From: Saccoglossus kowalevskii
Taxonomy: Eukaryota; Hemichordata; Enteropneusta; Harrimaniidae
NCBI RefSeq assembly: GCF_000003605.2
Contig: NW_003154744.1
Location: forward strand, 1 to 29,298
Direction of reading: 5' to 3'
DNA length: 29,298 nucleotides
In this document: positions 955 through 29,241 of the stretch, in pieces
Layout: the number at the start of each line of letters is the position of its first letter
How positions within the stretch are numbered: position 1 is the first letter of the stretch
Position numbers and translations under genes: made by a program
The notes under the pieces: model-generated
Databases searched by the model: none
What the model was told of the DNA's origin: nothing
The model's input: the letters and a program-made list of their open reading frames with translations, nothing else

Positions 955-1131
955 TTTTATTTGAGGAGCTGTGCAAAGATGGCGGTATGAATCCAGATGG
1001 ACAGGATATAGATGAATGTATCGATGTACCAGGACTATGTGAACATGGCATATGTCTTAACACTGTTGGATCATACAGATGTATATGTAATGGTGGATAT
1101 ACCAGTGACACTGAAGGAACTAAATGTGTTG
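955..1131 (+). CDS. Fibrillin exon: linker after a TB domain plus cbEGF 1 of 7
   Basis: The acceptor is TTTCAG before 955 and the donor is GTAAGA after 1131; the start is phase 1. The encoded stretch begins [21 protein letters not shown], apart from its first split codon, which resembles the tail of the last TB domain in vertebrate fibrillin followed by DGRDIDEC. The EGF domain continues with [14 protein letters not shown] and ends in KCV. An open reading frame running back to 888 is only intron read-through. Confidence 0.88.
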
Positions 1132-4100
1132 GTAAGATACATTCAAATTTATGAGTACATATGCGAGTACATTTCTTTACACCATTTGATCAAATTTGCT
1201 AAATTGTGATACGTAAATGTGTCTGGAACCGTTTCTCGTAGATTAATAGGGTTATATCATGATCATATATACTGGGTTAAATATGGTGCACATCATATGT
1301 TTTGCTGATTGGCAGCCATTTTGTTTTTCTCAAATACAAATTTTCGGCACACGTGTTGATATACATATTTAGTAGACATGTTTATCTATACATGTGACTT
1401 GTAATGTAATTAGGATTACCTGTAATACTATAAGCAAGGTTTGTGCATTAATTCTCAATGCTTGATTTTCATATTTGTATTGTTATTTATATATGTCAAT
1501 ATTTTACATCCTTTTAGATGTTAATGAATGTGATCTACCTACGTCACCGTGTGATTATAACTGCCAGAATACGGAAGGCAGTTTTCTCTGTGGATGTCCT
1601 CGTGGTTTCATACAAGGCTCAGATGGCAAATGTACTGGTAAGATATACTCACCTTATTCTGTTCTTGTCTATATGCATTTATTTCGACACCAAATATTAT
1701 AATACACTTTATCTCATGCCTTGCATCTCTTAGCAATGAATGCTATAATGGAAGTAAAAAAAAATCATGTTTTGTATAATTTTTACATTATGAGGTACTA
1801 AAATATTTACACTAGAAGGAAATGATGAGTACATTATTTAGATCACCATGATCATGTGGTGGTTAAAATCGTGCAATTTTAACGTGACGGAAATGCAATA
1901 AATGTGTAAAATCAATATGATTAATACATGACCCTAATGCGAAAAATGCATGGTGCAAATTTCAGAAATAATGACTATTTTGTATCAACAAATGTATACC
2001 TTATTCCCACTATTTGATGCACATATAGGCAAAAATTGCATTATTATATACTGAATTTGTTTTTATCATAGAAAATATTAAAGGTAGTGTTTGTTTTAAT
2101 GGGAATATAGTACCATGGTTTAGTTTGAATGTTTGTTCATTTGATAGATCTTGATGAGTGCAGTACCGAGGCTCATAACTGTATGTATATCTGTGTGAAT
2201 ACGATTGGTGGTTTTCACTGTAACTGCCCTGAAGGCTACACGCAGCATGGCTCGGGATGTATTGGTCAGTATTTATGTTTAAATCTTAATCTTTTATGAA
2301 ATAAGTTTAATCCACTATTAAAAAAAATACTTTTTTTATGTTTTTGTAAAATAATTTTATTTATATTGTGTGAAATTTAGTGGTGTGTAATAATAAGCTA
2401 ATTAGCAAATTTAATGAAATTAAATTTAGTTCAACTCTTGTACATCTGTCATATACTGTTATTCAAATCTGCCTGAAAATTATTTGAATAGTGAGAATTT
2501 CATTTATTATTTTCATGACATTTGTCTTAAAAAACTATGAGTCTAGCAGCAATAATTTAATGGATCACAGTGGATATAATTGCTTCCTATTTTTATTTAA
2601 CCATACAGATGTGAATGAATGCGCTGAACAGCCCCAATTATGTGGAGGTTTTGGTACCTGTCAGAATGACCCTGGTAGTTATCACTGTGAATGTCAAAGA
2701 GGATATACATGGGAAGTCACTCTCAGTATATGCCAAGGTGAGTATTTAGCAATTCGGCATTTATCAGCTTTTAATTTATGTTTGGTTTGAGCTTTATCCA
2801 TGAGTCTGTATGCAGATTAGCATGAAGACATTAAATTCTGATTTACTAGTTCACACTACTTCATTTCACAAAGCAAGACGGCCGACTGGTGGCCATTTTA
2901 ATGCTAAAAATGGTTTTGTTCTTGATGCATATGCATTTGGTTGTACAGATCTAAATCAAAAAAGCTGACTTATTTACAAGAATGCTGTTCTGGCTGGAGT
3001 CATGACATGGCTTTATTACTTGCAATTATTGATCAAATTACAAATGGCTCTCTGATTCCATTTTCAGTTAAGATGTGCATGTGAATTAGATTTGATTTTT
3101 GGGATTTGATTTACATTTTCTACTAAATACTACTAAATAATATAGGAAAATGACATGTTTTTTTTTTATTATTTCAGATATTGATGAGTGCATTGGTAGC
3201 AATCATAAATGCCAGTATGGGTGTCAAAATACTGTGGGTGGATATAGGTGTAACTGTCCACAAGGATTTCTACAACACTATTATTGGAATCAGTGTGTTG
3301 GTAAGTAAATTGGTGAAAACAAAGGCATAACATCACAGTATTTTTTTATGTAATGTTCCTTGAAATTTGAATGTTACATGTATAAGAATGTTCAACATGC
3401 AAAATTATGTTCGGATTTCAAAACAAATTACTATATATAAAATATAATTTTAATACGTCATCAAAACATTACATGTAATAGCATTTGCCATTTGCTTCAA
3501 AGACAGAATAACTATAATTATATATCTATTTTTTGTTTTTATTTGTAAATAAATAAGTGCACACAGCCTGAGTGCATACTTTGGGATATTTTCATGATAC
3601 CTTTATTATTATTTATCTTTTTTTACTGGCTTGTAGTAATAATTTATGAGAGATTATAGACTGAAATTAAAACAAAAAACGTACTGTGCAAATATTATTG
3701 AGTGATGAGATTCTATTTCAATGGCACATAGTAATGCTTCTGCGTTCAATGTAAACAAAAGAAAATTAAAATGTGAATGCTAGTACATTTTAGAACGAGT
3801 GCTTATTATGGAATGACAAATTCTATTGTTTTCAATGCTAGATGTATACTAATATGGCTTCTGTGTGTTTTCTCAGATGACAATGAATGTGCCAGTAATC
3901 AGAGATGTGGATCAGCAACATGTTACAATACAGTGGGTAGTTATAAATGCGGATGTTCTTCTGGTTTTTCCTTCAATGAGCAGTATTTATCATGTCAAGG
4001 TGAGACATTTTCAATTTACTTTTTTAGCTCCACTGTCGACTTTGTTGAGCGGAGCTTATCTTATGAGTGATTGTCCGTCGTCCATGTCAATGTTTTACTT

Positions 4101-6754
4101 TTTCGACTTCTTCTTGAAAACTACAAGCCTGAATGCTTTGATACTTGGTGTATATGTACCTTGGATAGACCTATCTTAGATTTGTTCATTTCATGATGAT
4201 ATGGTCAATTCTCTGATTTTGGTGAATATTTTTTAAATTTTTGGTAAAAAGTGATATTTTAGACTTCTTGTTAAAACCTGTTAAAGTCTGATTGCTTTGA
4301 TATTACATATATAGGTACTACATGTGGACCTCTCTCAGATTTGTTCATTTTGTGATGATATCTTCAATTTTCCAATTTTAATGAATATTTTTATAATTTT
4401 TGATAAAAAGTTTTTTGAATATTATTCTTTCGAATTCTTATTGAAAACAGCAAATCTGATTGCTTTAATGATACTATACATATTGTTCATCTTCTAATGA
4501 TATCTTTAGTTCTTTAATTGAAATGTGCAATGCTAACAGCGGAGCTATCTCAGATTTACTGTCATTTGAACAACTAGTGGCCATTTATGTGAACAAATTT
4601 GAACATTTCTCAGCGATATTTGAGCCAATTGAATTCACACTTAATTTAAGCAAATATCTTAATTAATATGTAGATGTGTAATGTACATTAATTAATGTAG
4701 TTTCTATTTTTTTGCCTTACAAGATGTGAATGAATGCAGTGGTTCTGTGTCAGGTGGTCAGAATCCTTGTTCTTTTGAGTGTCAGAACACGCGTGGTAGT
4801 TTTAGTTGTGGGTGTCCTACTGGTTACACAGCTGCATTTCAGGGGTGAGTATGTGTACACCATTGATGCCAATCTCTACTTAAACAGCAGTCAGGAAAGT
4901 TTGCAATGTCAACAGTACCAGTCCGTAGAGATGTTTCATACATTCTGAAAAACAACAAATTTTTGTTTTTGTGAATTTTTATTCTCGCAATAGGTGTGAT
5001 AACCTTATATAGCAGTTGTTGCCAACTTTATACCCAATTAACTTACACTAAATAAAACATTCTGTGATTTTATAAACTTTTTAGATACATGTAACTAGGG
5101 GAATATCTTGTGCCAGCTTTTTAGTATGACACAAGATATTCACATACATGTTCCGTTTTGAGCTTAATTATATATTCTATAGATATATATGCATTTATTA
5201 TATACTTGTGACTGTTATTGGGTCCAAAATATTCTGCCAATTGCAGGTTTTTTAGTCAAAGCAATGTCACAAAAGTACAAATCATTTAAAACTGTATGTA
5301 ATTATTACAAACTACTTTTTTATTTCAATTTCAGGTCATGCGTATCAACATTAGGAAGGGAAGCTGAAGGGTGCTATGAATGTGACTTAGCAAAGAAGAA
5401 TGGTGGTGGAGGTGTGCCTTTACAGATTCCACTTCAACCAAGTGGTTACCAATCACCTAACCTTAACGTTAATCAAGATCCATACTATCAGGGCCAGCAA
5501 CCGGTTGACACTGGATATTACCAGCAACCTTATGCAAATCCTGCTGATCAACCTTTTATACAGCCATTTGGGCAATCGCAGGGGTATGGACAAGGTTATG
5601 GACAAGGTTATGGAAAACCACTGGGTCCGAGACAACCTTCTGTTGGTCAGCCATTTGGACAACCAGTTGGTCAGCCATTTGGTCAACCAATTGGACAACC
5701 TGCTGGTCAGCCATATGGACAGCCAGTTGGCCAGCCATTTGGACAGCCAGTTGGCCAGTCATTTGGACAGCCTTTCGGACAGCCTAACAGCCAACAATTC
5801 GGACAGCCTAACAACCAACAATTTGGACAACCAAACAATCAACCTTTTGGGCATCCTAACAACCAGCCGGTAAATGGTGGTTATCCTTATCTTAACAAGC
5901 CAGTTGATGATAATTATAATTCCGGTGCTGAGTATAATCCATATGGTAGATTCAAGAGATCTCCAGAAATTTTAAATAAAGAGGTTAAACATAAAAGCAA
6001 TGCCGAAAAAATTCATGATGACAATTCCAACATCGGTGTTTCTTCCTCAACTACCACAAGATGGGCTGTTGACGGAAATACTTCACAATCTGAAGAGCTG
6101 GAAAAACCATTCTGACAAAAGGTTTGTTGGTGTGCAAAATGGCTCTGCTCTTATGAATAATTCTGAACCTCTCGGTATTGATAATTGGACTGACAGCTTA
6201 TTAAATCGTTCTAGCACAGAAACTACCACTTGGGATAGTCCCATTCCACGTAATACTTCGGACAATGTCAGTGAGGACGATTTTGGTGAATCACATGTAC
6301 CTGGTAATTCATCAATGAATGATATTGAAACATGCATGAACCTGCTGATTCCAATGATACTGAAGCAAGAGATGTAGATGAACAAGATAATAATAATGTT
6401 GCAGATGAAGATTTGGAAACTAATCCTAAACCCATTGTTCTCACAATAAAGCTCCCACATGCAAAACCTCGGAGTAGAATATTGAAGTTTGTGCCCTCGC
6501 TAGCATCATTCGTTGGTGACATGCAGTACAATATCACAAAGGGTAATGACAATGGGTATTTTATGATTAGAGACAAACATGGTTTCACTACTCTCTCATT
6601 CCGAAAGCAGGTTGTGAGGCCTGCTGTGTTTCATCTTGAGTTATCAGGTAAAGTGAAACCCAAACCAATTGGGGAAAAATTAGAAGAAGCTCTATGGAAC
6701 AGCCAAACAAAAAGATCATCAGTGATGGCACTAGAGCTCCACATTGTGCCTTGA
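955..6754 (+). CDS. Fibrillin, C-terminal part (8 exons, 5' end outside window)
   Basis: Fibrillins are secreted glycoproteins that polymerise into extracellular microfibrils. Exons: 955-1131, 1518-1637, 2148-2264, 2609-2737, 3178-3300, 3877-3999, 4724-4844 and 5335-6754. All introns are GT-AG. The first six are phase 1, as expected for one-EGF-per-exon genes, and the seventh is phase 2. The seven EGF domains carry the calcium-binding start D-x-(D/N)-E-C and six cysteines. From memory of FBN1/FBN2 they match the terminal seven domains one to one, for example [20 protein letters not shown] in exon 5. After them come CYEC, a furin-type RFKR and an asprosin-like domain. Unusual points are a ~180-residue Gly/Gln/Pro insert and two compensating frame changes in the last exon. 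Upstream TB and EGF exons lie left of the window. The family call is near certain; orthology to a particular vertebrate paralogue is not implied. Confidence 0.93.
1518..1637 (+). CDS. Fibrillin exon: cbEGF 2 of 7
   Basis: Exactly 40 codons lie between CTTTTAG and GTAAGA, phase 1 at both ends. It encodes [20 protein letters not shown] followed by [11 protein letters not shown]. It carries the calcium-binding DVNEC and the Asn that is often beta-hydroxylated in C-x-N-x4-(Y/F)-x-C. Confidence 0.93.
2148..2264 (+). CDS. Fibrillin exon: cbEGF 3 of 7
   Basis: A 117 bp exon (39 codons) with acceptor GATAG and donor GTCAGT, phase 1 at both ends. It encodes [20 protein letters not shown] then [19 protein letters not shown], which lines up with the DLDEC...CVNTLGGFTC domain of FBN1. 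It contains no useful start codon, so simple ORF scans miss it. Confidence 0.92.
2609..2737 (+). CDS. Fibrillin exon: cbEGF 4 of 7
   Basis: A 129 bp exon (43 codons), acceptor CATACAG, donor GTGAGT, phase 1. It encodes [20 protein letters not shown] then a C-E-C-Q-R-G-Y core. The QPxLCG and CECQRG motifs match the equivalent FBN1 domain. Confidence 0.93.
3178..3300 (+). CDS. Fibrillin exon: cbEGF 5 of 7
   Basis: A 123 bp exon (41 codons). A strong polypyrimidine tract and TTTCAG precede it and GTAAGT follows. It encodes [20 protein letters not shown] and then [20 protein letters not shown]. The second stretch is nearly identical to the vertebrate fibrillin domain and is the most diagnostic segment of the gene. 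Confidence 0.96.
3877..3999 (+). CDS. Fibrillin exon: cbEGF 6 of 7
   Basis: A 123 bp exon (41 codons), acceptor TCTCAG, donor GTGAGA, phase 1. It encodes [20 protein letters not shown] and [20 protein letters not shown]. It matches the DENEC...ACGSASCYNTLGSYKC domain of FBN1. The intron that follows carries a transposable element. Confidence 0.94.
4025..4547 (-). mobile_element. Helentron/pearl-like non-autonomous element, copy 3 (in fibrillin intron 6)
   Basis: It begins TAGCTCCACTGT (4025) and ends ACAGCGGAGCTA (4536-4547), a 12-bp inverted terminal repeat with one mismatch. It carries the same sequence as the elements at 24156 and 24558, but reverse-complemented: a terminal hairpin near 4026-4056, then about two ~157 bp internal units, then the GCTAACAGCGGAGCTATCTC end. 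It lies entirely inside the 4000-4723 intron. It generates a spurious protein-like frame in the hairpin-proximal part. Confidence 0.85.
4724..4844 (+). CDS. Fibrillin exon: cbEGF 7 of 7 (last EGF)
   Basis: A 121 bp exon, acceptor TTACAAG, donor GTGAGT; it starts phase 1 and ends phase 2. It encodes [20 protein letters not shown], then [14 protein letters not shown]. The sixth cysteine of the domain comes from the next exon (G-S-C-V-S), the same split seen at GQG|HCVSG in vertebrate fibrillins. Confidence 0.92.
4845..5334. other. Fibrillin intron 7
   Basis: An AT-rich intron. The only structure seen is a perfect 12-bp inverted repeat, GAATATCTTGTG at 5101-5112 and CACAAGATATTC at 5130-5141, with a 17-base loop. 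Confidence 0.7.
5335..6754 (+). CDS. Fibrillin terminal exon: CYEC motif, Gly/Gln/Pro insert, furin site, asprosin-like domain (frame interrupted)
   Basis: The acceptor TTTCAG precedes 5335. The reading frame runs [20 protein letters not shown], then a Gly/Gln/Pro-rich repeat, then the furin-type site RFKR at 5948-5959. It meets a TGA at 6113. A second frame carries an Asn/Ser/Thr-rich segment (about 6114-6325) with seven N-glycosylation sequons. The first frame then resumes at about 6329 and runs to the TGA at 6752. The end encodes an asprosin-like domain: [20 protein letters not shown], then [20 protein letters not shown] and [18 protein letters not shown], matching the vertebrate ILEL...GNEDGFF...YLHF pattern. 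The shifts fall in A-runs (6102-6106 one base long, 6328-6330 one base short) and cancel. An intron across the gap is possible but would remove the sequon-rich part. Confidence 0.85.
5554..5874 (+). repeat. In-frame coding repeat, (GQPF/GQPV)n, in fibrillin
   Basis: A tandem 12/24-bp repeat encodes alternating GQPF and GQPV/I/A tetrapeptides. It starts with [10 protein letters not shown] and decays into QPNNQ/QPNSQ units at its right end. Codon choice varies between units (cag/caa, cca/cct, ttt/ttc), so the peptide pattern looks conserved beyond simple DNA slippage. It lies between the CYEC motif and the furin-type site. Confidence 0.9.
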
Positions 6755-6945: not shown

Positions 6946-9771
6946 ATTTCATTCTATTTGTATGATTATACAAACACTGATTCTTTAAATTGGGCATGTG
7001 AGTAATACATATAAATGTATTTGTTGAGACAAACATTGGGCCATACTGTTATATGATCAAGCATTTTGGAGATCATCCTCAATATTTTAGGTTCAGAGGT
7101 TATGGACCGCACAATTTTTAACAATTTAATCTGCATATTTGATAACCTTTGTGTCGTTTCTGATTTACTATATACAACTTCAATCATCAAAGCAATATTT
7201 GATCTAATTTCTGCAAGATTTCACAATTTCACAATATTTTTGTCTTACATACTGTTCATTTGTTATTTCTTTTACGTCTTCTTTATTCAAGCTATAAATG
7301 CCTACAGCTAAATTACATTGTACTTTTAAGGAATTGTGTACTTCCTGTCTGTTGAGAATTACATTCTCGAAGTTATGACAAATCGTTCATGAAACAGATT
7401 TAACTATATGAAAAAATTGATGCATAATACGCCACATTTCAGAGCTAGTTTTGCAACAATTTATAATATTTTGAGTCCTCGAACATTCGTCATATAATGA
7501 TATTGAATAGACCATTTCTTCTGTAAAGAGACCATATGGGACATTTCTAGATTTAGTGTACTTTATGTCGACAACAGTGCTTATAATTACAATGAATCTA
7601 TGCTACTTCTTCTTCAATGATGAATTATAAACATATATTGTATTGTCATGTGTCTGTTTTTTGTGTGCAGTGTCTATTTTGGCAAGGACCACCAACACAA
7701 TTATGATATGTGAAGCCCAAGGTTTTATTTTCTTGCTTGATCGTTGTAATCTTAATAAAATCTGAGTTTATACATCGTTAATGAGTTTGTCTTATTGCCA
7801 TGTCTGTTAGTCCACACTATGTGAGTCACTGCTCTCAGTTCCATGTCACACATAACACATCTTGGTTTATGTCAAAGGCTACAAACCATCCTTAAAATGT
7901 TCCTAGTGCTAATCCACCAATCTGAATGCACCATTCCGAGATACACTATTCTGTGTTTATTTTGTGGTCACGACAATTCATATCTATTTGTTCTTCGCAT
8001 TACATCATACCACATTACGTCAAAGTAGGAAAAGGTACTGAAAAAAAGAAACAACCTAGACTAGGTTCAACTGTAATTCGAACTTTGCGCAACGAGTGAT
8101 ATGATAAACCTACTGTTCTGGGCTACCTGGAACTCTATGTCCGTCAATGGTTTGGAGTTACTAGTATATGTAAGATCATGAATATTCATAAGTTGATTGA
8201 TATGTAGCTTTTGAATATAGGCTCCACCTGTCACAATTTGAATTTCGTGACTTGTATTAAGAGTTGAGAAAAGTTGAAAGTGGAACAGATAGTTGGTAAG
8301 TGGTTTGGAATCAGTAAAAAGTAGGACAGGATCGGGGATATAAAATTCAACGTAATTCCTGGGCTACAATGTGGCTTAAATTTCCAATTGCACCAGCTTT
8401 CACTTCATAACACTTTTGATCATTTTACTGAACACCAAACTCTATTTTTAGGGGCGAGTCTAAGCCAATGTGGACGAAAATATTGTTCGACACACTAATA
8501 TACTGAAATATGATTTATTATAAATTCAAATGTTGAGCTTGAAAAACAGAAGTAAGTAAGTTTGTTAAACTAAGCATTTCATATATATTGGTGTTGTTTT
8601 CAGACTGAAAAGTTAGAATTTGATTGCTGGAATATGAATACAGTGGGTTTTTTCAACGTCTGATGAATTTCTTAATGGCGGTCCAATTCCATTTTCGACT
8701 TGTGTGCACTCAATCAGAAGTTTGACATTAATTTAACTTTTTTCCTGTTAATAAGTTTAATGGGCGGCAGTCGTCGTGCCGCGTGCTGTTCGATATGGAA
8801 CTCGTAGCGACGTATACAACGCGTGTAAAATACATTGTTTATTTACATGAAATTCGAACACGCGCTGCGCAACGACCATCGCGCTTTAAATACGTTGCAG
8901 TATTTCTTTGAGCGGCTCTTTTAAATGTCCATTACCCTGTGTTTATTCAGAAAACAGTTTCTTTTGAAATTTCAACAGCAGTGTTTTTCATGTTCCCTGG
9001 CCAATGGAATGTCAGTACTATTGATGCGATAGCTGTTTTGTATACGCGCCTTATTCATAAATGTACTAATACCGTAACCGATTGCTCAAAATGTCTATCT
9101 ATGTTGAATGTCTATGTACCTCTGAAACTTCTCAGTATATTTCCAAATTGAGTATTGTTCGTACGGGCTTGGCCAATTATTTTCCAACGTTCACTTGTAA
9201 TACTAGTAGTCTTTGTGCCAGAATCTAAGCTGGATCAATATCTTGCTGACTGTCATCCAGTCGCTTGGTCGATTATGTTAGACATAAAACTTGAGAAACA
9301 GTGAAGTAAGCTATGATAACAACGCGAAATAACTAATTTCACGTTAGCGACTCGATAATGTTCCCGGGCGCCACTTATCATTACGTAAACTCTTGACATT
9401 TTCTCGAAAACTACTTAACGAAAACGATTTTGTGTGCATCAATGCTTAATCAATTGAATTAACTGGACCAAATTCGTTAACGTAGGTCCGATTCTGTTCT
9501 ATTATTTTCGAAATAACTTTTATTATTAGGAAATCATTTTATTTGATTTAATTTAATAAAAAACACACGGTCACACATAATGCATTGCTGTTTTTTTTTT
9601 TCTACCAATGCATCCACCACCAATAGCATCACAATTCAGCCGATTATACGGTTACTAATAATGTGCTAATTACGTGATTCAGCACAACTTTTAGACTCGG
9701 AGTCAAATATGTATCTGTATTAACGCGTCTCCAGCCTTATACTCTTAATAGTCGTCTCGTAATCTCGTACA
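6946..9771. other. Intergenic, no gene recognised
   Basis: AT-rich DNA downstream of fibrillin. Short ORFs have no recognisable content. A CpG-rich patch at about 8760-8895, much richer than its surroundings, could be regulatory. There is no direct support for a promoter. Confidence 0.5.
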
Positions 9772-10143
9772 GTGAATGCGGTCAATGACCTGGTGTATGG
9801 CATGACGGTCAACACCGGGGAGAGTGTGGGTTAGAATTCCAAGGTAGTAGGCTGCCCATTTGCCAGGCTCGCGGCACTCGTATTTTGAAGGTACTCGTAC
9901 GTAAAGCTGAATCGGTCCTTGAGCTGTTCTTAAATCTCGATGGGCACGTAGACGTCATTTTCTCGCATTAACTGACGTAGTCTCTATCTATACACGTGAA
10001 TATGCTCGAGTTGTGATGTGCTGTCCCGCATTTCCGATACTCTGGATCGTCTCGTTCTGTTGACAGGAGATGATTGTCCGTATGGCGATATACGTCTTCA
10101 ATCGGAAAAATGCTATAAATACATAAATAAATAAATTAATAAA
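9772..10143 (+). mobile_element. tRNA-derived SINE, copy 1
   Basis: The left part carries Pol III promoter-like boxes: TGGCATGACGG (A-box-like, about 9799) and GGTTAGAATTCC (B-box-like, about 9829). Next comes a block shared with the copy at 12520: GCTCGCGGCACTCGTATTTT here and GCTTGTGGCATTCGTATTTG there. The right part shares GTTGACAGGAGA, TCTTCAATC and an (AAAT)n tail with that copy. Head and family assignment are inferred; the shared tail is directly visible. Confidence 0.6.
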
Positions 10144-10354
10144 TACTGTAAAATGACTAATTTTCACTGGGTTTAAATTTCACTGATTTACCATTTCAGG
10201 CATATTCAGTGGGTTTTAAATTCACGGTTTCGTCATTTAGATAATGTGTTCTATGCTAAATTTTACATATTCACTGGGTTTTAATTTAGCGCATTTTCCA
10301 GTCAGCGAAATAAGCTAAATTAAAACCCAGTGAATAATTACTACCTTTACAGTA
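10144..10354. mobile_element. Miniature inverted-repeat element with long TIRs (TACTGTAAA ends)
   Basis: The ends are TACTGTAAA (10144-10152) and TTTACAGTA (10346-10354). About 38 bp of each end match as imperfect inverted repeats. Inside is a perfect 23-bp inverted repeat, 10268-10290 and 10314-10336, with a 23-base loop; both arms contain the phrase CACTGGGTTTTAATTTAG. Further diverged copies of that phrase occur near 10162 and 10207. The element abuts the A/T-rich tail of the SINE. Confidence 0.75.
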
Positions 10355-11031
10355 TATAAATATGCTGAGCGACATTTTTAAATAATACACGCTATATAAC
10401 CAACCTCATATCATATTTAATCAGTGCTAGCAGCTGTTACCTATTTATTATATTTAAGCGTGTGTCAGCTCGTGATACACCGGCATAGGCTGTGTCCAGT
10501 AATTAAAAAAAAAAGATAACGATCACATAATATTGCGTTTACACCACCGTTTCGAGGGATGTAAGGCTCTTGTCGCTACACTGACTAGTATCACAATTGC
10601 CGTTGAGGGCAGCATAACAAACTGTACCCGTGGGACAGAGACTGTAAATCGAATCTACTGGAGAATGCGCACAATGGCACTAATCCGTAGAAGGGCAACT
10701 TTTCGATAAACCAAATATTTCAGCCGCGTGTGTACTTTTTAATCATCAAAAGTTGACACACCTTGGCTGCTGAAATATCATAATAATATACATTTCGATT
10801 TTAACAACTATATTCAGGAATAACTACCCCCCCCCTCACACCGCAGCCGAGAGCGTGTATGCCAGGATATATTGCACAATTCATGATATATATATATATT
10901 GTTGGTTTTTTTTTTTACCAAAACTTAGAGTTTACAATTTAAGTTTATTTCAATAGTAGAAGTCAAATTTTAATTCATTGTGGAGAATTTAGTAGATATG
11001 ATGTCATTATAATAAATCTATTTGCTGATTA
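10355..11031. other. Intergenic, with one foldback at 10715-10778
   Basis: No gene seen. ATATTTCAGC (10715-10724) pairs with GCTGAAATAT (10769-10778). Inside them TGTGT/ACACA and ACTTTT/AAAAGT also pair, giving a ~64-nt imperfect hairpin. Low-complexity tracts include a C-run near 10827 and an (AT)n run near 10887. Confidence 0.6.
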
Positions 11032-11355
11032 TCCTCGGGCGGACATCCGGGCATTTTCACCGCCTGGCAACCGGAGGCGGTGAAAACAAAGGCCCAAAAC
11101 TCGCAGAAAACGGTATTTTGGGATGATTGTTGAGACTCATCTGAACAGTGTAACAAGATTAGTCTTACGTGTGTAACATATATAAATTTGGTTGTTCGGG
11201 ATTACTTCAAAGTTGAGTTTGTGTTGTTTTCTCGAATTTTCACCGGCTCGACCGGCGTTCCACAGCAGCGCGCACAGAGCCCATAGAAATGCATGTACAG
11301 TGGTGCGCGTCGTAGCAACGTGGAACGTCTTGTGACGTAGCTCCGCCCCCGAGGA
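11032..11355 (+). mobile_element. MITE with TCCTCGGG(GG)CGGA ends, copy A
   Basis: It starts TCCTCGGGCGGA (11032-11043) and ends TCCGCCCCCGAGGA (11342-11355), an imperfect inverted terminal repeat. Near the left end lies a perfect 12-bp palindrome pair, TTTTCACCGCCT (11054-11065) and AGGCGGTGAAAA (11075-11086). The whole unit recurs in reverse orientation at 21968-22278. No transposase is encoded. Confidence 0.85.
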
Positions 11356-12519
11356 TTCCATATATATACCTTGTGCACACCTGCGCGTTAATTCAATTTA
11401 CCATGGCACTCATATGAAGTTTCAAGGTCTAGTTCACTTGCAAATTTGTTGCACATGGTCGCAGAGAGATTATGGCGTTTAGGTCCCGCTCGGTTTTTGT
11501 GTTCCCGACTGTTTTTACGCCGAGGTAGGTGTAAGACAACAGTTATACTGACACTGATATCCCTAAGGGGATTTGAACTCTGTCGGCACGATAAAGGAAA
11601 ACAGAAATAGTTGTGCATACGCTAATTGCGTTCACGTCAGAGTGTACTTGCTTCGAAAAAGTTGTCTATCGTTGCTCGTCCCCAGATCAGCGTCACTCAG
11701 GTCACTGTCACGATGCGCAAAGTCCATATTTTCACGCTCAGTGAAAACGCGGTGTACATGGCTTCCCACGCACATCAGATGATGCGATTGATAGGTTGTT
11801 ATATAGATTCATCTAAATTTTTTATCCCCCTCTCCTCCCCCGAACTAGTTACGCTCGCATTTCGGTGAAGAACAGTTTCCGAATAGAATGCCTGGTTAAT
11901 ATAATAAATTCGCCACGTTTTATCAATTTTCGACTTTCAGTAGATCAGTCTTCTAGATTATTTTTCGTTGTGTCAATATTCAGCCAATGTCAGCCACCTT
12001 GGATTATTTGGTCCCGGGAGAGGGTATTTGTACTTTGGCCTTTTCACCACCTAATTTTCTCGCCTACAATTTTTTGCACTTTTTATTTTATTTTCTTCTT
12101 AAATCATGGTCAACCGGGAAATTGCATTTCGCGTTAGTGGGAAAGATTCTACAAACTCGTTCTAAAGGAATTATCATATGGGACAATAAAATCGCCACGA
12201 CTGAGCCAGTCTACCGTCACGCTGACAAGGGTGACCGTTGAGATATCTTGAATTCATATGACTCTCACTGGTGTACTGTAATTAAATAATCCAAACAGGG
12301 GTGAAAAAATTATAACCAGCTTGTTTCTCCAAATTCTCACATAGGGATTGACGTTCACATAGCAATTTTTCGTGTGTTTTTTTTTATGTAGTACGAAATA
12401 TTTTTTGGATAAAATCTGACTGAAAATGTAAAAATTGAACAAGTTCAATGAGAATCCACGTGATAGCATTATTATCTGGATTTTCTGATAATTCTTACAA
12501 ACATTAAAGTACTCATTTC
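11356..12519. other. Intergenic, no gene recognised
   Basis: Several short ORFs occur on both strands but none has a recognisable domain or splice-bounded structure. GGGGATTTGAACTC at about 11566 resembles a reversed tRNA T-arm, but no cloverleaf forms. Confidence 0.5.
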
Positions 12520-12893
12520 AAGAAGGTTTTAGGTTCAACACTCGTGGTCGGCTGCACACTCAAAAGCACAAAAAGAATACATTCTGCCTATGGCTTGTGG
12601 CATTCGTATTTGGGAGAACGACGTCCTTTCCGTCGGATGGGGATTGTGGGACCAGTGTCGGTACACGTCCTATCCTCAGTGCACATAAAAGATCCAGTTG
12701 TTCTTATCATAAAGAGTAGAGGTTTCCGCGGGACAGTTGACATATTCATCTCATTACATGAGTATGCTTGAGTTGTGCAATCTCTTATTACCGAGTTTGT
12801 AAATGCTCACTGGGTGCGTTGACAGGAGACAGACGTACGAGTATGAATCTTCAATCCTATAATTACTGGGTAAATAAATAAATAAAATGTTGT
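12520..12893 (+). mobile_element. SINE, copy 2
   Basis: A B-box-like GGTTCAACACTC near 12532 is followed by TCGGCTGCACACTC, CTGCCTATGGCTTGTGGCAT, and TGTCGGTACACG...GTGCACATAAAAGATCC. This phrase order is familiar from SINEs in marine invertebrates. It ends with GTTGACAGGAGA, TCTTCAATC and a (TAAA)n tail, as in the copy at 9772. The left boundary is uncertain because the tRNA-like head is degenerate. Confidence 0.65.
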
Positions 12894-14312
12894 GCCTACA
12901 TACGATTTGTGTTGTTCATATATAATTCAACGGAATTTTGAGATATGACGAGCCTTTTTTGGAGGGGGCAAGGGTTTTTTTCGTTCAACGTAATTGCAAT
13001 ATTTTTTTGTTTGTACAACGTAAATTGAAAAAATAAATTCCGTAATTCTGTAATCACAGGCTAGACGTACAACGTAATCAATCAAATATTGCAGCGCAGC
13101 AACGGCGCAGAATTTGAGTCGGAGAGCTCTTCGGACCATTTAATGTTCCATTTTTTATCACTGTAAACTGTAAAAACGTCTTTTTTTCTTTGTAAATAAA
13201 TTGTAAAAAGCTCTTTTTATTCAGTTTCCCATAAAACTGTGCCAGCTGCCCCCTTGCCCCCCTCTTTTTGCTATTGGAACCAATAGTAAGTGGTTCATTT
13301 TAAGTGGTTCATTTTTTTCTCCACAAAAAGTAGTTGAAATCTGATCATTTGTTTTGATTGTAGTCACAGATTTTAATCTGAATACAAATGGTACGTTGAG
13401 CAATATGGCGCACCGTGGTCACGTGATCGAGCTAAACATAATAATTAGAAACAAAGAGCACAACTAACAAGTAAGAGCGTGATGGAGTTGTAGGAATGAA
13501 TGAAAATCGCAACATTCTGTTTATTTGAAGTAAATTCAGTTGTTGACCTGAGTAGTTATAGTACAACAAATAATCTTAAACATAGTGTTCAGTTCGCGTA
13601 TATCCACCCACCTGTTGTCGGATTATTTGATTGTGTTCCGTTGTGTTTTTATGTCGGGTGTTGAAGAATGTAATGATGACACAGGGAGTGCCATGTTTGT
13701 CATTCCACTGCAACCAAATGTAACGAAATTCAAGTAGTAACAATCGCTCTCTCACTGTCTTTTACTCGTCCCGCCCGGTGTTGTTGGACGGTTACCACAA
13801 ATACTAATAAATCCGGTATTAATGAGAGTAATTAGCTCAAAGTTCGCCGACACCAATTAGAAGTTATCTCTGTTCAATTGACGACATTTCGTCGATTAAC
13901 CTACTGGCGATCCCGTTTGAACTTTGCCGCCTAACACCGGAAGGCGGCGTCTTTGCAGTAGTAGCTGATGTGATGTCTTTTTTAAAGTTTGAACAATGTT
14001 GTATTTCGTAGATGTCAGCGGGATACATGTTGGTTTCCTCCGATGAAACTGACACGTAATGTATACTTCAGTTGAAGTGATACAAATATTGACGACACTG
14101 TATTTTAATTGCGTTGTTTGTTCCAAACCTACTCACAATACCCTCATGTATAATTCATATGAACACAAAAAGATAATCCACACCTTAGTTAAGTGATTCA
14201 CGATGCTTGTTTATATGCTTCCAATAACGACTTAATGAGATTTCAAAGGAATCACTAATCGCGTCGCCGGGAATCTGGCCAAATATTTAAATAATAATAA
14301 CGCCGCGAGTGG
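12894..14312. other. Intergenic, upstream of the forkhead gene
   Basis: No gene recognised. Short structures seen are a duplicated TAAGTGGTTCATTT near 13288-13317 and a small hairpin GCCGCCT...AGGCGGC near 13927-13948. Regulatory function is possible from position only. Confidence 0.5.
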
Positions 14313-14739
14313 CATGAACCAAAATAATGTAAAATACCCTAAAACAGACATGTTTATGAGCTCGAAGTTGACGATTATTGTGTAGTATTACTGGAATCTG
14401 GCGCGATTCCAATGTTGAGTTATAAAAACAAAATTAAAACACACGTTTATCCACGTTGTCCGTATGCTATTAACACGTGTGTCGGGCATCACATCAACAT
14501 TTTAAAAGATAGTAGCACAAATCTCACATACAAGTCCACAATATTAATTGTCATAATGCTTTTTTGTGACTAGTTCATCAAGTTGTTTTAACATCAACAA
14601 TACAGTAACAACAATATTGAAGAGTCCTATCGCAATAAGTTCTGTGTAGCATGAAGTGTAAAACAATTCACTCACCAGTGTCATTGTTGTTTTCATGTTT
14701 TTCTTATAAACTTGGTAATGACGTGGGCAGGGCAAGACA
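14313..14739 (+). repeat. Left arm of inverted repeat flanking the forkhead gene
   Basis: 14613-14739 is the reverse complement of 16705-16833. The first 31 bases are identical and the remainder is similar with small gaps, including a shared GTTTTTCTTATAAACTTG core. A further 20-bp perfect match, 14313-14332 against 16838-16857, lies immediately outside in the right arm but is separated by ~280 extra bases (14333-14612) in the left arm. Confidence 0.85.
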
Positions 14740-15093: not shown

Positions 15094-16032
15094 ATGGCGT
15101 TCAACTACAACACTCAACTGTACACAGATGAAGAACATACCTACAGAGAAATGATACAGGGAAACCAGGCTGTCCATGCTAACCAGTTCGTATCAATACC
15201 ATGCGGTGAGCCGGACAAGCACGTTTTAGAAAGTGCTCCCTCGCCGTCACCTTCTTCCAGTAGCGCAGCTTCCTCCTCGTCACAGTCATCCTTAACGAAT
15301 GAGAAGAGGAGATTCGCCGATGTCAAGCCGCCGTATTCGTACATTGCTTTGATAGCCATGTCACTGGAGAATGCCCAAGATGGCATGCTGACTTTGAATG
15401 AGGTATACGAATTCATCATGAACAAGTTCCCGTATTTCCGAGAAAACCAACAAAGGTGGCAGAATTCGATTCGACACAATCTGTCTTTGAATGACTGTTT
15501 TGTGAAGATTCCCCGTGCCCCCGGTAGAGCAGGGAAAGGCAACTATTGGGCGTTGCATCCCGCTGCACGGGATATGTTCGCTAATGGAAGTTATTTAAGA
15601 CGGGCAAAGCGATTCAAATTGGGACGTAGGAGGAACGAACCGGCACAAATCCAGCACGTTAGCTCATACGGACATTTCAATCTTTTCGGCTCCGGGATTG
15701 CTGCACCAGCTTGCAGCTATCAGGGTATAGACAGCATTCCAGTGCAAGCAAGACCGATGGAAAACCATCACACAGATTCCTGGAACGGCCTGAACAGCGC
15801 TTTGTCGTCATCATGCAATACAGCATACTATCCATCGTCACTGTACCAGCGTTCACAAATAAACTCTAGCGCGTACTTCGTAGATCAATTCAAAGGTATA
15901 CCAACGACGCGATCAACAACGATACCCAACTACCAGGCGTCTTCACGATTACAGCAACCATTTTCCTACGTAAATGTTGGAAGCGACAGACAATTCCACC
16001 ACATGAACAGACTCGCCCCTCCAAGCTTATAA
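15094..16032 (+). CDS. Forkhead-box (Fox) transcription factor, class I, intronless
   Basis: A DNA-binding transcription factor of 312 residues in a single exon. The forkhead domain covers about residues 78-175, from [20 protein letters not shown] to LRRAKRFK. It includes the recognition-helix core [20 protein letters not shown] and the wing [11 protein letters not shown] Ser-rich stretch precedes it ([18 protein letters not shown]), and a basic GRRR follows. The rest is Ser/Asn/Tyr-rich with no motif I recognise; no clear Engrailed-like repressor motif was seen. The start ATG has a good Kozak context (ACGATGG). The open frame continues upstream to about 14962 without an ATG. Compared from memory, the domain is about equally close to FoxB (FRENxQRWQNS, WALHP, NGSxLRRxKRFK) and FoxE ([17 protein letters not shown]). 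FoxAB is another option. The subfamily is left open. Confidence 0.95.
15325..15618 (+). other. Forkhead DNA-binding domain
   Basis: A 98-residue winged-helix domain with all landmark blocks: KPPYSY, the [15 protein letters not shown] helix region, [15 protein letters not shown] (recognition helix) and [10 protein letters not shown]. Departures from common class I Fox sequences are [10 protein letters not shown] in helix 1/loop, RAPGRAG before wing 1, and [19 protein letters not shown] at the end. Confidence 0.97.
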
Positions 16033-24043: not shown

Positions 24044-27000
24044 CTGAAAAATAAAACAAAATAAACAAGAATTAATGTTATTTAAAAAAGAAACACCGGT
24101 ACCAATAAATAAACTGATAAAGTATAATAATAAACAAGCAGCCCCTCGTATGAGATAGCTCCGTTGTTAGCAATGCACATTTCAATTAAAGAACTGAAGA
24201 TATCATTAGAAAATGAACAATTCTGAGAGAGGTCTACCTCTAGTACTTATATGTATAGTATCAAATCCAGCAGACTTGTGGTTTTCAACAAGAAGTCAAA
24301 AATATCACTTTTTACCAAAAACGACAAAAATATTCATCAAAATTAGAGAATTAAAAATGTCATCACGAAATGAACAAATCCAAGACATATACACCTAGTA
24401 TCAAAACAGTAAGAATTGTAGTTTTCAAGAAGAAGTCAAAAAAGTAAAAAGTTGACACGGACGATGGTCGCCGGACGACGACGGACAATCACTCATATAA
24501 TAAGCTCCGCTCGACAAAGTCGACAGCGGAGCTAAACAAGCAGCCCCTCGGCTGAGATAGCTCCGCTGTTAGCAATGCACATTTCAATTAAAGAACAGAA
24601 GATATCATTAGAAAATGAACAATATGCATAGTATAAATGCAATGGGACTCATTTTTCACCATAAATGATTGTGGTTTTTAACACGAAGAAAATATCACTT
24701 TTTACCAAAAATGACAAAAATATTCACCAAAATTAGATAATTAAAGATATCATTACAAAATGAACAAATCTGAGAGAGGTCCACATGTAGTACCTATGTA
24801 TGTAATAATATCAAAGCAATTGGACTTGTCGTTTTTAACAAGAAGTCGAAAATATCACTTTATACCAAAAATGACAAAAATATTCACCAAAATTAGAGAA
24901 TTAAAGATATTATTACAAAATGAACAAGTCTGAGAGAGGTCCACATGTAGTACCTATATATGTAATATCAAAGTAATTGGATTTGCGGTTTTCAACAAGA
25001 AGTCTAAAATATCACTTTTTACCAAAAATGACAAAAATATTCACCAAAAATAGAGAATTGACGATATCATTACAAAATAAACAAATCTGAGAGAGGTCCA
25101 CATGTAGTACCTATATATGTAATATCAAAGCAATTGGACTTGTGGTTTTTAACAAGAAGTCGAAAATATCACTTTTTACCAAAAATGACAAAAATATTCA
25201 CCAAAATTAGAGAATTGAAGATATGATCATGAAATGAACAAATCTGAGAAAGGTCTACCCAAGGTACATATACACCAAGTATCAAAGCATTCAGGCTTGT
25301 AGTTTTCAAGAAGAAGTCGAAAAAGTAAAACATTGACACGGACGACGGACGACGGACGACGACGGACAATCACTCATATGATAAGCTCCGCTCGACAAAG
25401 TCGACAGCGGAGCTAAAAAACACACACAAATTAAAAAATATATATATAAAATCAAAGATTGATTTAATTTGTGGTTTATTTTAAAATACTCATATTCTAA
25501 CATGACTGAAACTGCACAGTTTCGTTTGCAAATAGCGGTATGTTATCATGCAAGTAAATCGCCACGACGCTGAATGAAACAGATACCCTAGTGGTACATG
25601 TGTGACTTCACTTAAAATAAATTACAGCCAAAATCACTCATTATCACAATTGTTGGGGTTTCGTGCACCATCGACGTATTTTGTCACAAAAAATATAAAC
25701 ATTTTACACAAAATACGTGCATTTCTAGACGGGCACGAAAAAGTATTACAAATATCTAAAGGATTACACAGTGTTTCGGATGGGAAATTCATTGATATCA
25801 ACTATATTGTATTCACAAGTTTAAAGTCTATTGGGTCAAAGGTTACACAACATCTCGCCACATTAATAAAATCACACTATCTCCTCAGTTATATTTGCAT
25901 AGTACTAAGTAGCATCGGTTTACGAGTAAGATGGCATGATAGTGTAATCTAAGCTTTGGTCAATGTAGTCCAAGAAAAGACAGAGTTCATACAGTACTAC
26001 TTTGGAACATGTAATGTGTATAAGTTGCAGTCAATGTTGACTTACTTGGAATACATTTTTATTCAGTATATTAGTTCACCAAGAAACAGTTTTTGGTCAT
26101 TATTTTGCCTGGGGAGGTCATATACACAATGACTCTGTTTAGTCTAAACATTGTCAACTAGTTTTCAAAAATCGAAGAATAAATAAAAAAAAAACATTAA
26201 CCTTAAAAGTGTGAAAAAATTAAAGTCAGGTCAGTTAAATGCCAGCTCCTTTGTGTCCGTCAAGCACCAATCGCTTTAAATAATATGAATCGAATCTGTC
26301 AGTTATTTTTATTACAAACAAATTATCTTATATAAATGCGAACATAATTAGAACCTGCATCTCGTATTTAAAAAGCACAATGTCTGGTATTACCTAAATT
26401 ACAAAACCCAATTGGAAGAAAGTGGTTTCGAACATTGTACATGTTAATGACAAAATAAAGGCACCGTAAAAGACATTGATTATCTATAACGGGCACGGGC
26501 TGTCTGTCAAATATTCTTTATTTTTTAAAACAGCCGATACATTTGGCATAATGTTGGATTCAGATAAATTTGCATTTCAATTACACAGATGTGTTATATA
26601 TGTACAGTTTTTAATAATCCTTTCCATTCACGCATAGTCATTTTATTCACATCGCCCACAATACAGTCCACTATATTTTGAGTTCATCATTTCAATATAT
26701 CTACAGCTGTATCGTATTTATTCCACGCACCAGGCATATATTACTCCACTAATATTTCGTACTATACTACCGATTATTTAATGGTTTGACTTCAACCCGA
26801 CACACTAAACTGATGAATATTGACAGTTTAAATAATTTGGTTTTTATGAATCTAATAATTGTATGTTAACTAATGTTGTATCACTATAACAAGTAATTTG
26901 AGGTCCGAATGAAACTTGCTTAATGATGATTAAAACCACTAGACTGGAAAGAGCATTTTATATTCTATTTCTTTATTGGTCGTGTTGGTTGCATGTTAAT

Positions 27001-27133
27001 ACTACTGAATTTACCTTTAATTTGGCTGTATTTGCATATTGCTTCATTGAGGTTCAGACATATCAAGTTGAGACCACGTGGTTGACCAACAGACAGAAAC
27101 CAGACATGATTTGATTCCACTGCAAACACCGAT

Positions 27134-27228
<95 letters not shown>

Positions 27229-29241
27229 TGTATTTATGTATTTATTTATTTATTTTAGTTATAAAGCAAATGTGATATATCAAAAATAATTGAATACGTT
27301 GATCTGTATTTGTATCAGGAAGCAAACGTTCTCGGCCCGTAAACAATACAAAAACTGACGGTATGAAAAACAAACTTTGAATCTAGAGAACTCACCATGA
27401 GTATATTTCCATCATCAGTGACTTCTCTGACTATAGTTGTTTCTTTGCCCTTTTCACCAGGCTTTGGCTTCTGCACTTCCTTCAGCTTATCTTTATCCCA
27501 TGTTACAACGCACTGTGGGCAAAGATGTATAACGCATAGCTCTATATTGGAAAATTCTTATTGGTATGCAAATGAGACTAATAAATATTTAAAAACTATA
27601 AATGTATTATTTATTTCAACTTAAAGCAAAACTTGAGTAAAATGAATCTGGCTTTCATATCACTTCATGCCACACTGCCCCGTCACAGATAATTTTAAAG
27701 TTTCAAATAATTTCAAGTGATTTTATCCATAAACTCTATCCGACTTTGTCATATGCAATGTGACTAACTCAGTAGATCATGTCTGAGACAAGACACAACA
27801 TGTTTTTGCTAATATAAATGAGGGGGGGGGACAAATCTTATTCAACTCAGGTCACTGGCGGAGGCACAAGGGGGTCGCCCTCCGAAAAAAATGAGAGGGG
27901 CGTCGCCCCCCAAATCAAGCTGAAACCATTTGTGTCAGCAAAATTTGTCATTCAAAAATGCAGGAAATAGCGTTTCAGAGAGTCTAGATTTCAGATCTCG
28001 CCCCCAAATCAAATTGTGTTAAAGCGATACTCTCTGCACTGCAAAGGAGATGTTTCCATTTTCAAAATATGTCATTGCGTGGGCTTGCTGATTGGCTGGT
28101 TACATTCAACTGCCACTGACGTTTCAAAAGAGTTTTTTTATGCCGAGAGTACAGCCGTAAGGCAGTTATTTGAATGGGAAATGTTTTGTAATGTATGTAA
28201 ATAGCTCATGGTCCTGTCAAATTACCTAAGCTAAAGGATATAAAGATTTATTTTAAGCCAACTACTAAATCGGATACAATACGGATATGAACATGTAATG
28301 TTACAAGTATTGTTGTATGTTGATGACACATTTTGATTGTGATTTGTCATGACGTAAAAATGTTTTTCCTGTACCAAACAAAAACATGAGATACGTATTA
28401 GCCTGTGTTTTTTTCATCGAACGAGTGTGTTCAGCAAAATCAACATTTTAATTTCAACATTCTAATTTGGCTTCCAACATGCAGTCTCAAACAACGATAT
28501 TGAAAAATGCATGTCTTCAGCAATGCTGCGTTTATAAGTGTAGACCATGCACAACACAGATCCAGACGGCATGTTCACGTGACCAAATTTGACAATAGTT
28601 GAGACGTAACAAATAACCAAACTGCCGTGAAAGCAGATTGGCTTCCAAGTAATATCAGAGGTTAGGCAACAGATTTAATTTGCAGTGATCATGTAAACGG
28701 CAGTTTAACATCTCAAATGTCCTTCACATTGCGTCCTGCCGCGCGCTTTCTACTTTGTACCACCGTCCCTCACGGTGTTTGTAGTAGCATGCACGTGGAT
28801 GCAAAGCGTTTAGGAGAGTCTAGACGAAGTGATTAGAACAATTTGGCGGGAAATGCCAAACGTGTCTTAGTCGAGATCAGATGATGATTAAAATGAACTG
28901 ATAATACTATCTGTACGCATTGCTATAAAACTTTAATGACTTGCGCATTATATCAGTGCTACACATATACTAGCACTGTACAGCGCGGCGTGAATTCAAC
29001 AGGATTACGTACAACACGTGCTCAAAGGAAGAAATACTTGACTTGTGTGTTTGTTGGTAATTTCTTTACCTTTACATTCCTGTCATCCATTGTTTTGAAA
29101 TCGAATTCTTCTCCCACGGTAAATTCTACTGTTTGGTTTTTGAATGTTGATTCTGATTTCCACACAATTTATCACCGTCTCTGGTAACAGTCAGCGTTGG
29201 TGTAGTCATGTTTCCAATTTTGCGGGTTGCAAAACCCACCC
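23990..29241 (-). CDS. Fatty-acid-binding protein (FABP/CRABP superfamily), exons 2-4; exon 1 outside window
   Basis: An intracellular lipid-binding protein: a ten-strand beta-barrel that carries fatty acids or retinoids in the cytosol. The exons on the - strand are 29241-29070, 27512-27396 and 24043-23990, the last including the stop. All have GT-AG borders. Intron positions match the classical four-exon FABP genes: phase 1 before VGFATRK, then after DDRNVK, then before TLYIDD. The protein reads VGFATRKIGNMTTPTLTVTR..., STFKNQTVEFTVGEEFDFKT, ETTIVREV and CTRLYKKLE. The Arg of TIVREV and the R-x-Y of CTRLY are the residues that bind the ligand carboxylate in this family. One base is missing in exon 2, and exon 3 is five codons longer than usual. 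The last intron is 3.35 kb and holds two mobile elements. The first ~24 residues lie beyond the right edge. Confidence 0.92.
24156..24534 (+). mobile_element. Helentron/pearl-like non-autonomous element, copy 1 (FABP intron 3)
   Basis: It starts TAGCTCCGTTGT (24156-24167) and ends ACAGCGGAGCTA (24523-24534). Near the right end, AGCTCCGCT-CGAC and GTCG-ACAGCGGAGCT form a hairpin, followed by CTAA. About one and a half internal units are present. The flanking AAACAAGCAGCCCCTCG is repeated before copy 2, so the two copies look like a tandem duplication. Confidence 0.85.
24558..25415 (+). mobile_element. Helentron/pearl-like element, copy 2, with ~157-bp tandem array
   Basis: Terminal repeats are TAGCTCCGCTGT (24558-24569) and ACAGCGGAGCTA (25404-25415). 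Internally, ACCAAAAATGACAAAAATAT starts at 24704, 24864, 25021 and 25178, giving units of 160, 157 and 157 bp. A short GACGGAC microsatellite (about 25338-25369) precedes the terminal hairpin. The architecture (short inverted ends, central tandem repeats, 3' hairpin, CTAA end) matches non-autonomous Helentron-type elements such as DINE-1 and the bivalve pearl family. Confidence 0.85.
25416..27395. other. Remainder of FABP intron 3
   Basis: AT-rich intron sequence with no recognisable exon or element apart from the TTTA microsatellite at 27132-27255. The 116-residue + strand ORF at 25602-25952 shows nothing recognisable and lies antisense in the intron. Confidence 0.6.
27132..27255. repeat. 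(TTTA)n microsatellite
   Basis: About 30 near-perfect TTTA units with GTA-containing variants at the right end. It creates an artificial (YLFI)n reading frame. Confidence 0.97.
27396..27512 (-). CDS. FABP exon 3
   Basis: 117 bp, 39 codons, phase 0 at both ends. Acceptor TTTGCCCACAG, donor GTGAGT. It encodes CVVTWDKDKLKEVQKPKPGE, then KGKETTIVREVTDDGNILM. The usual exon is about 102 bp; the extra residues sit in the KPKPGEKG turn. Confidence 0.92.
27513..29069. other. FABP intron 2
   Basis: Non-coding. It contains a G/C-rich patch at about 27820-27920 (a G-run, GGGGTCGCCCTCC and GGGGCGTCGCCCCCC) and then TTTCAGAGAGTCTAGATTTCA. These resemble fragments of dispersed repeats in marine invertebrates, but the family is not identified. 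Short ORFs here are not supported. Confidence 0.5.
29070..29241 (-). CDS. FABP exon 2 (one base short)
   Basis: The acceptor TTTCTTTTCAG and donor GTAAAG are on the - strand. The exon starts in phase 1 with VGFATRKIGNMTTPTLTVTR then DGDK. Then the frame shifts by one and continues VWKSESTFKNQTVEFTVGEE, then FDFKTMDDRNVK. The exon is 172 bp; 173 bp is the usual length in FABP genes. The missing base falls in the A-run complementary to TTT at 29168-29170. Confidence 0.9.

Follow-up and report, generated by a model that had tools for sequence, protein, structure and literature searches.

A Gly/Gln/Pro-rich spacer between the CYEC motif and the predicted convertase site of a Saccoglossus kowalevskii fibrillin

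Architecture of the gene

We analyzed the whole of contig NW_003154744.1 (C4412 in our numbering; 29,298 bases, hereafter the window) from the genome of the hemichordate Saccoglossus kowalevskii, which amounts to 572 Mb in 4830 contigs. The plus strand of the window carries at 955-6754 the 3' end of a gene that is, judged by its architecture, an invertebrate fibrillin, and in which a long Gly/Gln/Pro-rich spacer separates the CYEC motif from the proprotein-convertase motif. This part of the gene consists of seven exons, each with a single calcium-binding EGF-like (cbEGF) domain, followed by one long last exon. The first of them (955-1131) opens with residues of the kind that come after a TB domain and continues into cbEGF 1. 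The other six cbEGF exons follow at 1518-1637, 2148-2264, 2609-2737, 3178-3300, 3877-3999, and 4724-4844, the last of which holds the last EGF. All seven were assigned from splice sites, translation, and Pfam EGF_CA, which matched seven stretches in the spliced 325-residue piece (E = 7.6e-58). The exon at 4724-4844 is joined to the last coding exon (5335-6754), which was delimited by its open frames and a good acceptor (tttcaatttcag/GTC).

The last exon completes EGF 7 and then encodes, as read from its translation, CYEC (5372-5383), the cysteine pair that belongs to the unique domain at the fibrillin C-terminus. The spacer (5384-5947), defined by translation, composition, and a silent-change test, follows directly and includes a tetrapeptide array of 16 in-register 12-base units at 5645-5836, first GQPx and later GQPN-NQQF octads. 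Next comes RFKR (5948-5959), which reads as a proprotein-convertase motif of the R-X-K/R-R form. Beyond it, a polar post-cleavage linker (5960-6427), characterized by a coding-score scan and a list of N-X-S/T sequons, has its frame broken near 6113 and 6340 and leads to a putative C-terminal propeptide domain of the Ig-like fibulin/fibrillin type (6428-6754, stop at 6752-6754), recognized by a match to Pfam Fibulin_C below its cut-off.

The order of these parts is fibrillin-like: cbEGFs come first, then CYEC and RX(K/R)R, and last a C-terminal domain that is putatively of the fibulin/fibrillin type. The unique domain at the fibrillin C-terminus is described as having an RX(K/R)R site and two conserved cysteines (PMC3306419). 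We take CYEC to represent this pair. The C-terminal domain scored 21.1 bits against Fibulin_C (E = 3.9e-4), under the cut-off of 24.6. A PDB sequence search with it gave 0 matches, a search of viral contigs found no relative, and NCBIfam gave nothing useful; its single-sequence AlphaFold model had a pLDDT of 51 and was too poor for use. The EGF part matched 20 PDB sequences, all of them EGF-bearing. NELL2 ranked first and fibrillin 1 ninth, so this search with the EGF part by itself does not point to fibrillin in particular. The initial annotation had named the gene a fibrillin, and the combined architecture of seven cbEGFs, CYEC, RX(K/R)R, and the C-terminal domain supports that name. Within the genome, the C-terminal domain (6329-6751) matched one place, and the fibrillin gene in the window is probably the only one of this animal.

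We also examined the genome for the rest of the gene. TB domains are the hallmark of the family. The TB profile had eight matches, four on contig C130 and four on contig C128, and none in the window. The regions read were 70 kb of C130 (31 kb of it N) and 50 kb of C128 (16 kb of it N). Read by eye in the 5' to 3' direction, the minus strand of C130 has exons of the cysteine-rich N-terminal and EGF1-3-like kind, then a TB-profile match at 52995, two cbEGFs, and TB1 at 49053. After TB1, again by eye, came an EGF-like exon, cbEGFs, a masked gap, a TB at 15695, cbEGFs, a TB at 7960, five cbEGFs, and a masked end. We presume from the vertebrate fibrillin order that the names hybrid 1 and TB1 apply here; the match at 52995, made with the TB profile, sits in the hybrid 1 place. 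Since C130 follows the fibrillin order and the window opens with an exon of the post-TB type, the two are most simply parts of one gene, with C130 as its likely 5' part and the join drawn from domain order.

The minus strand of C128 at 20001-33000 (L023-L024) carries a second TB/cbEGF gene, perhaps LTBP-like; the fibrillin C-terminal domain found no match anywhere on this contig.

Composition and repeat pattern of the spacer

In vertebrate fibrillins, about a dozen residues lie between CYEC and the processing site. Here the distance is exactly 188 residues. The initial annotation had described a Gly/Gln/Pro repeat between CYEC and a furin-type site, and this order was confirmed; a long insert is indeed present, whereas its dimensions needed correction, from about 180 residues starting at 5400 to 188 starting at 5384. 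The spacer is composed of 19% Gln, 18% Gly, 17% Pro, 9% Asn, and 8% Tyr, with 15 Tyr, 4 Lys, 0 Cys, and a net charge of -2. It is predicted to be disordered, with a Uversky mean hydropathy of 0.374 against a boundary of 0.417. For 2P+G, the 107-residue core gave 0.61 and the spacer as a whole 0.52; the boundary between elastomers and amyloids lies at about 0.6.

The repeat pattern was nonrandom. GQP occurs 13 times, compared with a mean of 1.1 and a maximum of 7 in 10,000 shuffles. Identity at period 4 was 63, against a shuffle mean of 21.8 and a maximum of 41; at period 8 it was 71, against a mean of 21.4 and a maximum of 39. At the DNA level, the tandem array spans 5643-5865, first in 12-base and then in 24-base units. 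A collagen was rejected because the repeat period is 4 and not 3, and no triple helix is therefore expected. Two Pfam matches under their cut-offs, PT repeat at 23.5 bits (cut-off, 26.2) and Prion_octapep at 16.4 bits (cut-off, 32), were taken as low-complexity matches.

We then compared silent and replacement changes among the 16 units from 5645. In the Gly-Gln-Pro codons, 16 of the 24 changes were silent (random placement in 10,000 runs: mean, 4.2; maximum, 12), and across all four codons the figure was 18 of 42 (random mean, 5.6; maximum, 14). The two other frames gave 2/43 and 1/44 silent changes, with no excess over random. The fourth codon was free to vary among F, V, I, A, Y, and N. The units are related copies and their silent changes are not independent events, though the contrast between frames is clear. 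These results indicate that the pattern of the spacer has been kept as protein, since the silent excess is confined to the CYEC-RFKR frame.

Possible splicing within the spacer

The last exon contains GT-AG pairs that could define a hypothetical in-frame exonic intron taking most of the spacer, at 5412-5903 (492 nt) or, in a shorter option, at 5646-5903 (258 nt). If spliced in some or all transcripts, such an intron would shorten the link between CYEC and RFKR. Both pairs, 5411/5904 and 5645/5904, keep the frame. For the first, the values of donor and acceptor fall inside those spanned by the real sites of the gene: donor 5411 (GAG/GTGTGC) scores 3.4, compared with 1.0-8.3 for the seven real donors, and acceptor 5904 is preceded by 62% pyrimidine, compared with 62-88% for the eight real acceptors. 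The pair 5645/5904 is the best one (9.2) by a matrix built from the gene's own sites; by general frequencies donor 5645 is weak, and a nine-base-identical site at 5669 scores -0.3. Comparable sites arise by chance, however, as an intronless forkhead open reading frame (ORF) in the window contains 42 GTs, one of which scores 4.0 as a donor. Moreover, the in-frame excess of silent changes is not expected of a constitutive intron. We consider removal of much of the spacer by splicing very unlikely.

Frame breaks and the segment after the convertase site

The last exon is not a single open frame. The frame with CYEC and RFKR is closed by a TGA at 6113-6115. Coding-like sequence then continues in a second frame up to about 6340-6377, after which the first frame takes over again until the stop at 6752-6754. 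Both breaks lie 3' of the convertase site and leave the spacer untouched. As a background for the coding score, we used overlapping windows of the presumed noncoding region 7000-14500; none of the 7275 windows reached the score of the second piece, and none of 7413 reached that of the third. A 101-nt GT-AG stretch at 6304-6404 was considered as an intron at the second break and rejected, as it has no pyrimidine tract and its own interior is coding-like in frame. The breaks may be a sequencing error, an allele, or real.

These breaks, together with the shortness of a contig that begins inside the gene, are what would be expected if the spacer or the last exon were an assembly artefact or a pseudogene remnant. 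By contrast, splice sites and frames are intact in the seven upstream exons, and the coding score supports the second and third pieces. The exon (5336-6754) has one DNA match in its own genome, which is itself; with a single match for the exon and another for the C-terminal domain, no intact paralogue was found as a source for a pseudogene copy. Likewise, 13 different sequences occur among the 16 array units, which makes collapse or expansion of an exact repeat unlikely. We therefore regard an artefact or a remnant as highly improbable. The intact upstream exons, and the single match of the exon in the genome, likewise led us to regard a pseudogene or a foreign gene as unlikely.

The linker after the cleavage site is itself long. 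Its first piece, which runs to 6112, contains a single N-X-S/T sequon, and its second (6117-6340) contains seven. This bears on another explanation, in which the tail mainly regulates processing: the long spacer would alter the masking of the last cbEGFs by the propeptide, and the tail would be trimmed later. In fibrillin-1, the propeptide is reported to bind cbEGF41-43 and block premature assembly, and N-glycosylation beside the site to regulate cleavage (PMC5639267); in the gene analyzed here, eight sequons are present between the convertase site and about 6340. However, RFKR is the sole R-X-X-R motif in piece 5336-6112, with no second one in the spacer, and the mechanism is extrapolated from the human protein. 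A mainly regulatory tail is quite unlikely in our estimation. None of the two frame breaks, the in-frame GT-AG pairs, and the second long segment rich in sequons had been mentioned in the initial annotation.

Similar arrays elsewhere in the genome

A genome search with the spacer gave at least 150 matches besides itself (150 of 320 candidates were scored), and among the matches listed the next best after itself had an E value of 6.6e-10. Fourteen other places, each on a different contig, were inspected: three within L004-L012 (C1210, C2676, and C441) and eleven corresponding to L033-L043. All 14 were low-complexity sequences or other tandem repeats. GQP occurred 0 or 1 times in 12 of the 14, twice in C691, and 13 times in C995; in all nine loci of L004-L012, four of which were translated, it occurred 0 or 1 times. 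The stretch at C995:469238-469654 (L034) is open and minisatellite-like, with 12-residue units (KSEYGQPIVSTH) containing the 13 GQP, which are not arranged as GQPx tetrapeptides. The GQP count by itself is therefore not distinctive. No second GQPx tetrapeptide array was found among the 14 places, and the distinctive feature is the tetrapeptide array inside a fibrillin, which was not found elsewhere among them. In addition, a scan of unmasked sequence, 39 kb of C130 on both strands and 34 kb of C128 on the minus strand, found no G/P/Q-rich open stretch, compared with one cluster in the window.

These observations bear on the strongest rival explanation, that the spacer is a tolerated low-complexity linker, translated and without a special mechanical role, which grew by slippage where length hardly matters. 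The spacer array is tandem, and minisatellite-like peptide repeats are present elsewhere in the genome. Since the linker beyond the cleavage site is also long, the whole linker zone seems loosely constrained. Low-complexity regions are, moreover, described as frequent at protein ends (PMC11285758). Against this stands the silent excess in Gly-Gln-Pro codons in one frame only, which implies that some peptide property has been kept. We give a tolerated linker an appreciable chance, well short of even; if it is merely that, the spacer is a minor curiosity.

Comparison with known systems

The gene shares its cbEGF array, CYEC, and RX(K/R)R with the fibrillins, a family made up of FBN1-3 in vertebrates and one fibrillin in invertebrates, and a putative C-terminal propeptide domain completes the order. 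In human fibrillin-1, too, the number of cbEGFs at this place is seven. Those named for it are cbEGFs 37-43 (PMC5639267). Invertebrate fibrillins are reported to have an EGF-like domain after TB1 (PMC3306419), and likewise an EGF-like exon follows TB1 on C130. Unlike known fibrillins, the gene in the window has the 188-residue Gly/Gln/Pro spacer before the site and a long linker after cleavage. No mention of a spacer before the cleavage site was found in the excerpted text of PMC3306419. The initial annotation knew of no description of this arrangement, which agrees with titles and the starts of abstracts found by searching an open-access library, a scope outside which most subscription journals fall.

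The closest counterpart within the family is the region after TB1 in tetrapod fibrillins, which is reported to contain 40% Pro in FBN1 or 38% Gly in FBN2; in the invertebrates covered by that study, this Pro/Gly-rich region is reportedly absent and an EGF-like domain is present instead (PMC3306419). Like the spacer, it is Cys-free, Pro/Gly-rich, and flexible. The tetrapod region, however, lies directly after TB1, whereas the repeat in the window lies at the C-terminal end and consists of Gln-rich tandem tetrapeptides. No N-terminal Pro/Gly-rich region was found in the unmasked part of C130. This distribution would suggest that Pro/Gly-rich stretches joined fibrillins more than once, at opposite ends.

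Outside the family, the spacer resembles elastin, flagelliform silk, and resilin in its high Pro and Gly content, short periodic motifs, and predicted disorder. It differs from elastomeric proteins in that Gln is its commonest residue and in that it is short and without a known cross-linking module; the resemblance is one of working and not of membership. Octovafibrin of octopus egg tethers, a load-bearing molluscan protein of tandem EGFs (PMC10336842), is likened here by description, not sequence. The name fibrillin has also been used more loosely than here, as in the pearl mussel, for which 146 'fibrillin' genes were counted by an EGF_CA criterion (PMC10969987). Excerpts of a study of silk-like proteins list fibrillin among its broadly distributed proteins, with no position given for the glycine (PMC4944945).

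Proposed role of the spacer

Human fibrillin-1 undergoes its C-terminal cut on secretion, and its propeptide is reported to fold back on cbEGF41-43 and to block early assembly (PMC5639267). The N- and C-termini of fibrillin are located close to the microfibril bead (PMC5639267). On this basis, we propose that the link between the last EGF/CYEC and the convertase site has grown into a 188-residue, Cys-free, disordered tail that would remain on mature fibrillin near the microfibril bead and would also lengthen the tether of the propeptide. Before cleavage, the spacer would act as a long tether, on which the propeptide could still fold back on the last cbEGFs, less tightly. A furin-type convertase would then cut after RFKR; the convertase-type P domain has five matches in the genome. 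Since the spacer is encoded 3' of CYEC and 5' of the convertase motif, it would stay with the mature chain after the cut, and that chain would end in the Gly/Gln/Pro tail. That the tail stays on the mature protein had been proposed in the initial annotation, and the position of the spacer and its coding, nonrandom sequence favor this. With the fibrillin termini near the bead, the tail may form a soft, hydrated, tyrosine-containing brush there, giving slack or adhesion. We rate this proposal at roughly an even chance. What would be new is a fibrillin with an unusual mature C-terminus, whose function we infer from the sequence; elastic behavior of the tail is a guess from composition.

Several points weigh against the proposal. 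The 2P+G value is borderline (0.52 across all of the spacer), and there are few Lys residues that could form cross-links (4/188). Support comes from the genomic sequence of one animal only. The spacer has matches elsewhere, including C995 with an equal GQP count, and low-complexity scores mean little. In-frame exonic introns could take out much of the spacer. With two frame breaks after the site, no single frame of the assembled copy encodes the whole propeptide.

A bolder version would hold that, in a lineage without elastin, the GQPx tail at the bead is fibrillin's own elastomer, takes the role of the vertebrate N-terminal Pro/Gly-rich segment, and is a module common to relatives. We consider this unlikely. 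How animals without elastin tune the stiffness of their microfibrils is an open question, and assembly of human fibrillin-1 is controlled by C-terminal cleavage. A fibrillin retaining such a long low-complexity tail would be a natural experiment on how much change is tolerated between the last EGF and the propeptide.

Other features of the window

The forkhead-domain gene at 15094-16032 is open and intronless (Pfam Forkhead, E = 2.3e-36). At 24669-25323, a 157-base tandem repeat of 4.2 copies is followed by a GCTCCGCTCGACAAAGTCGACAGCGGAGCT-type end. A similar GCTCCGCTCGACAAAGTCGACAGCGGAGCT-type end was seen by eye in opposite orientation at about 4027-4060, in a fibrillin intron, and the repeat at 24669-25323 is therefore probably a dispersed element. 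An ATTT microsatellite of 31 copies occupies 27132-27255. On the minus strand at 27396-29206, two exon-like pieces appear by eye to be fatty-acid-binding protein-like.

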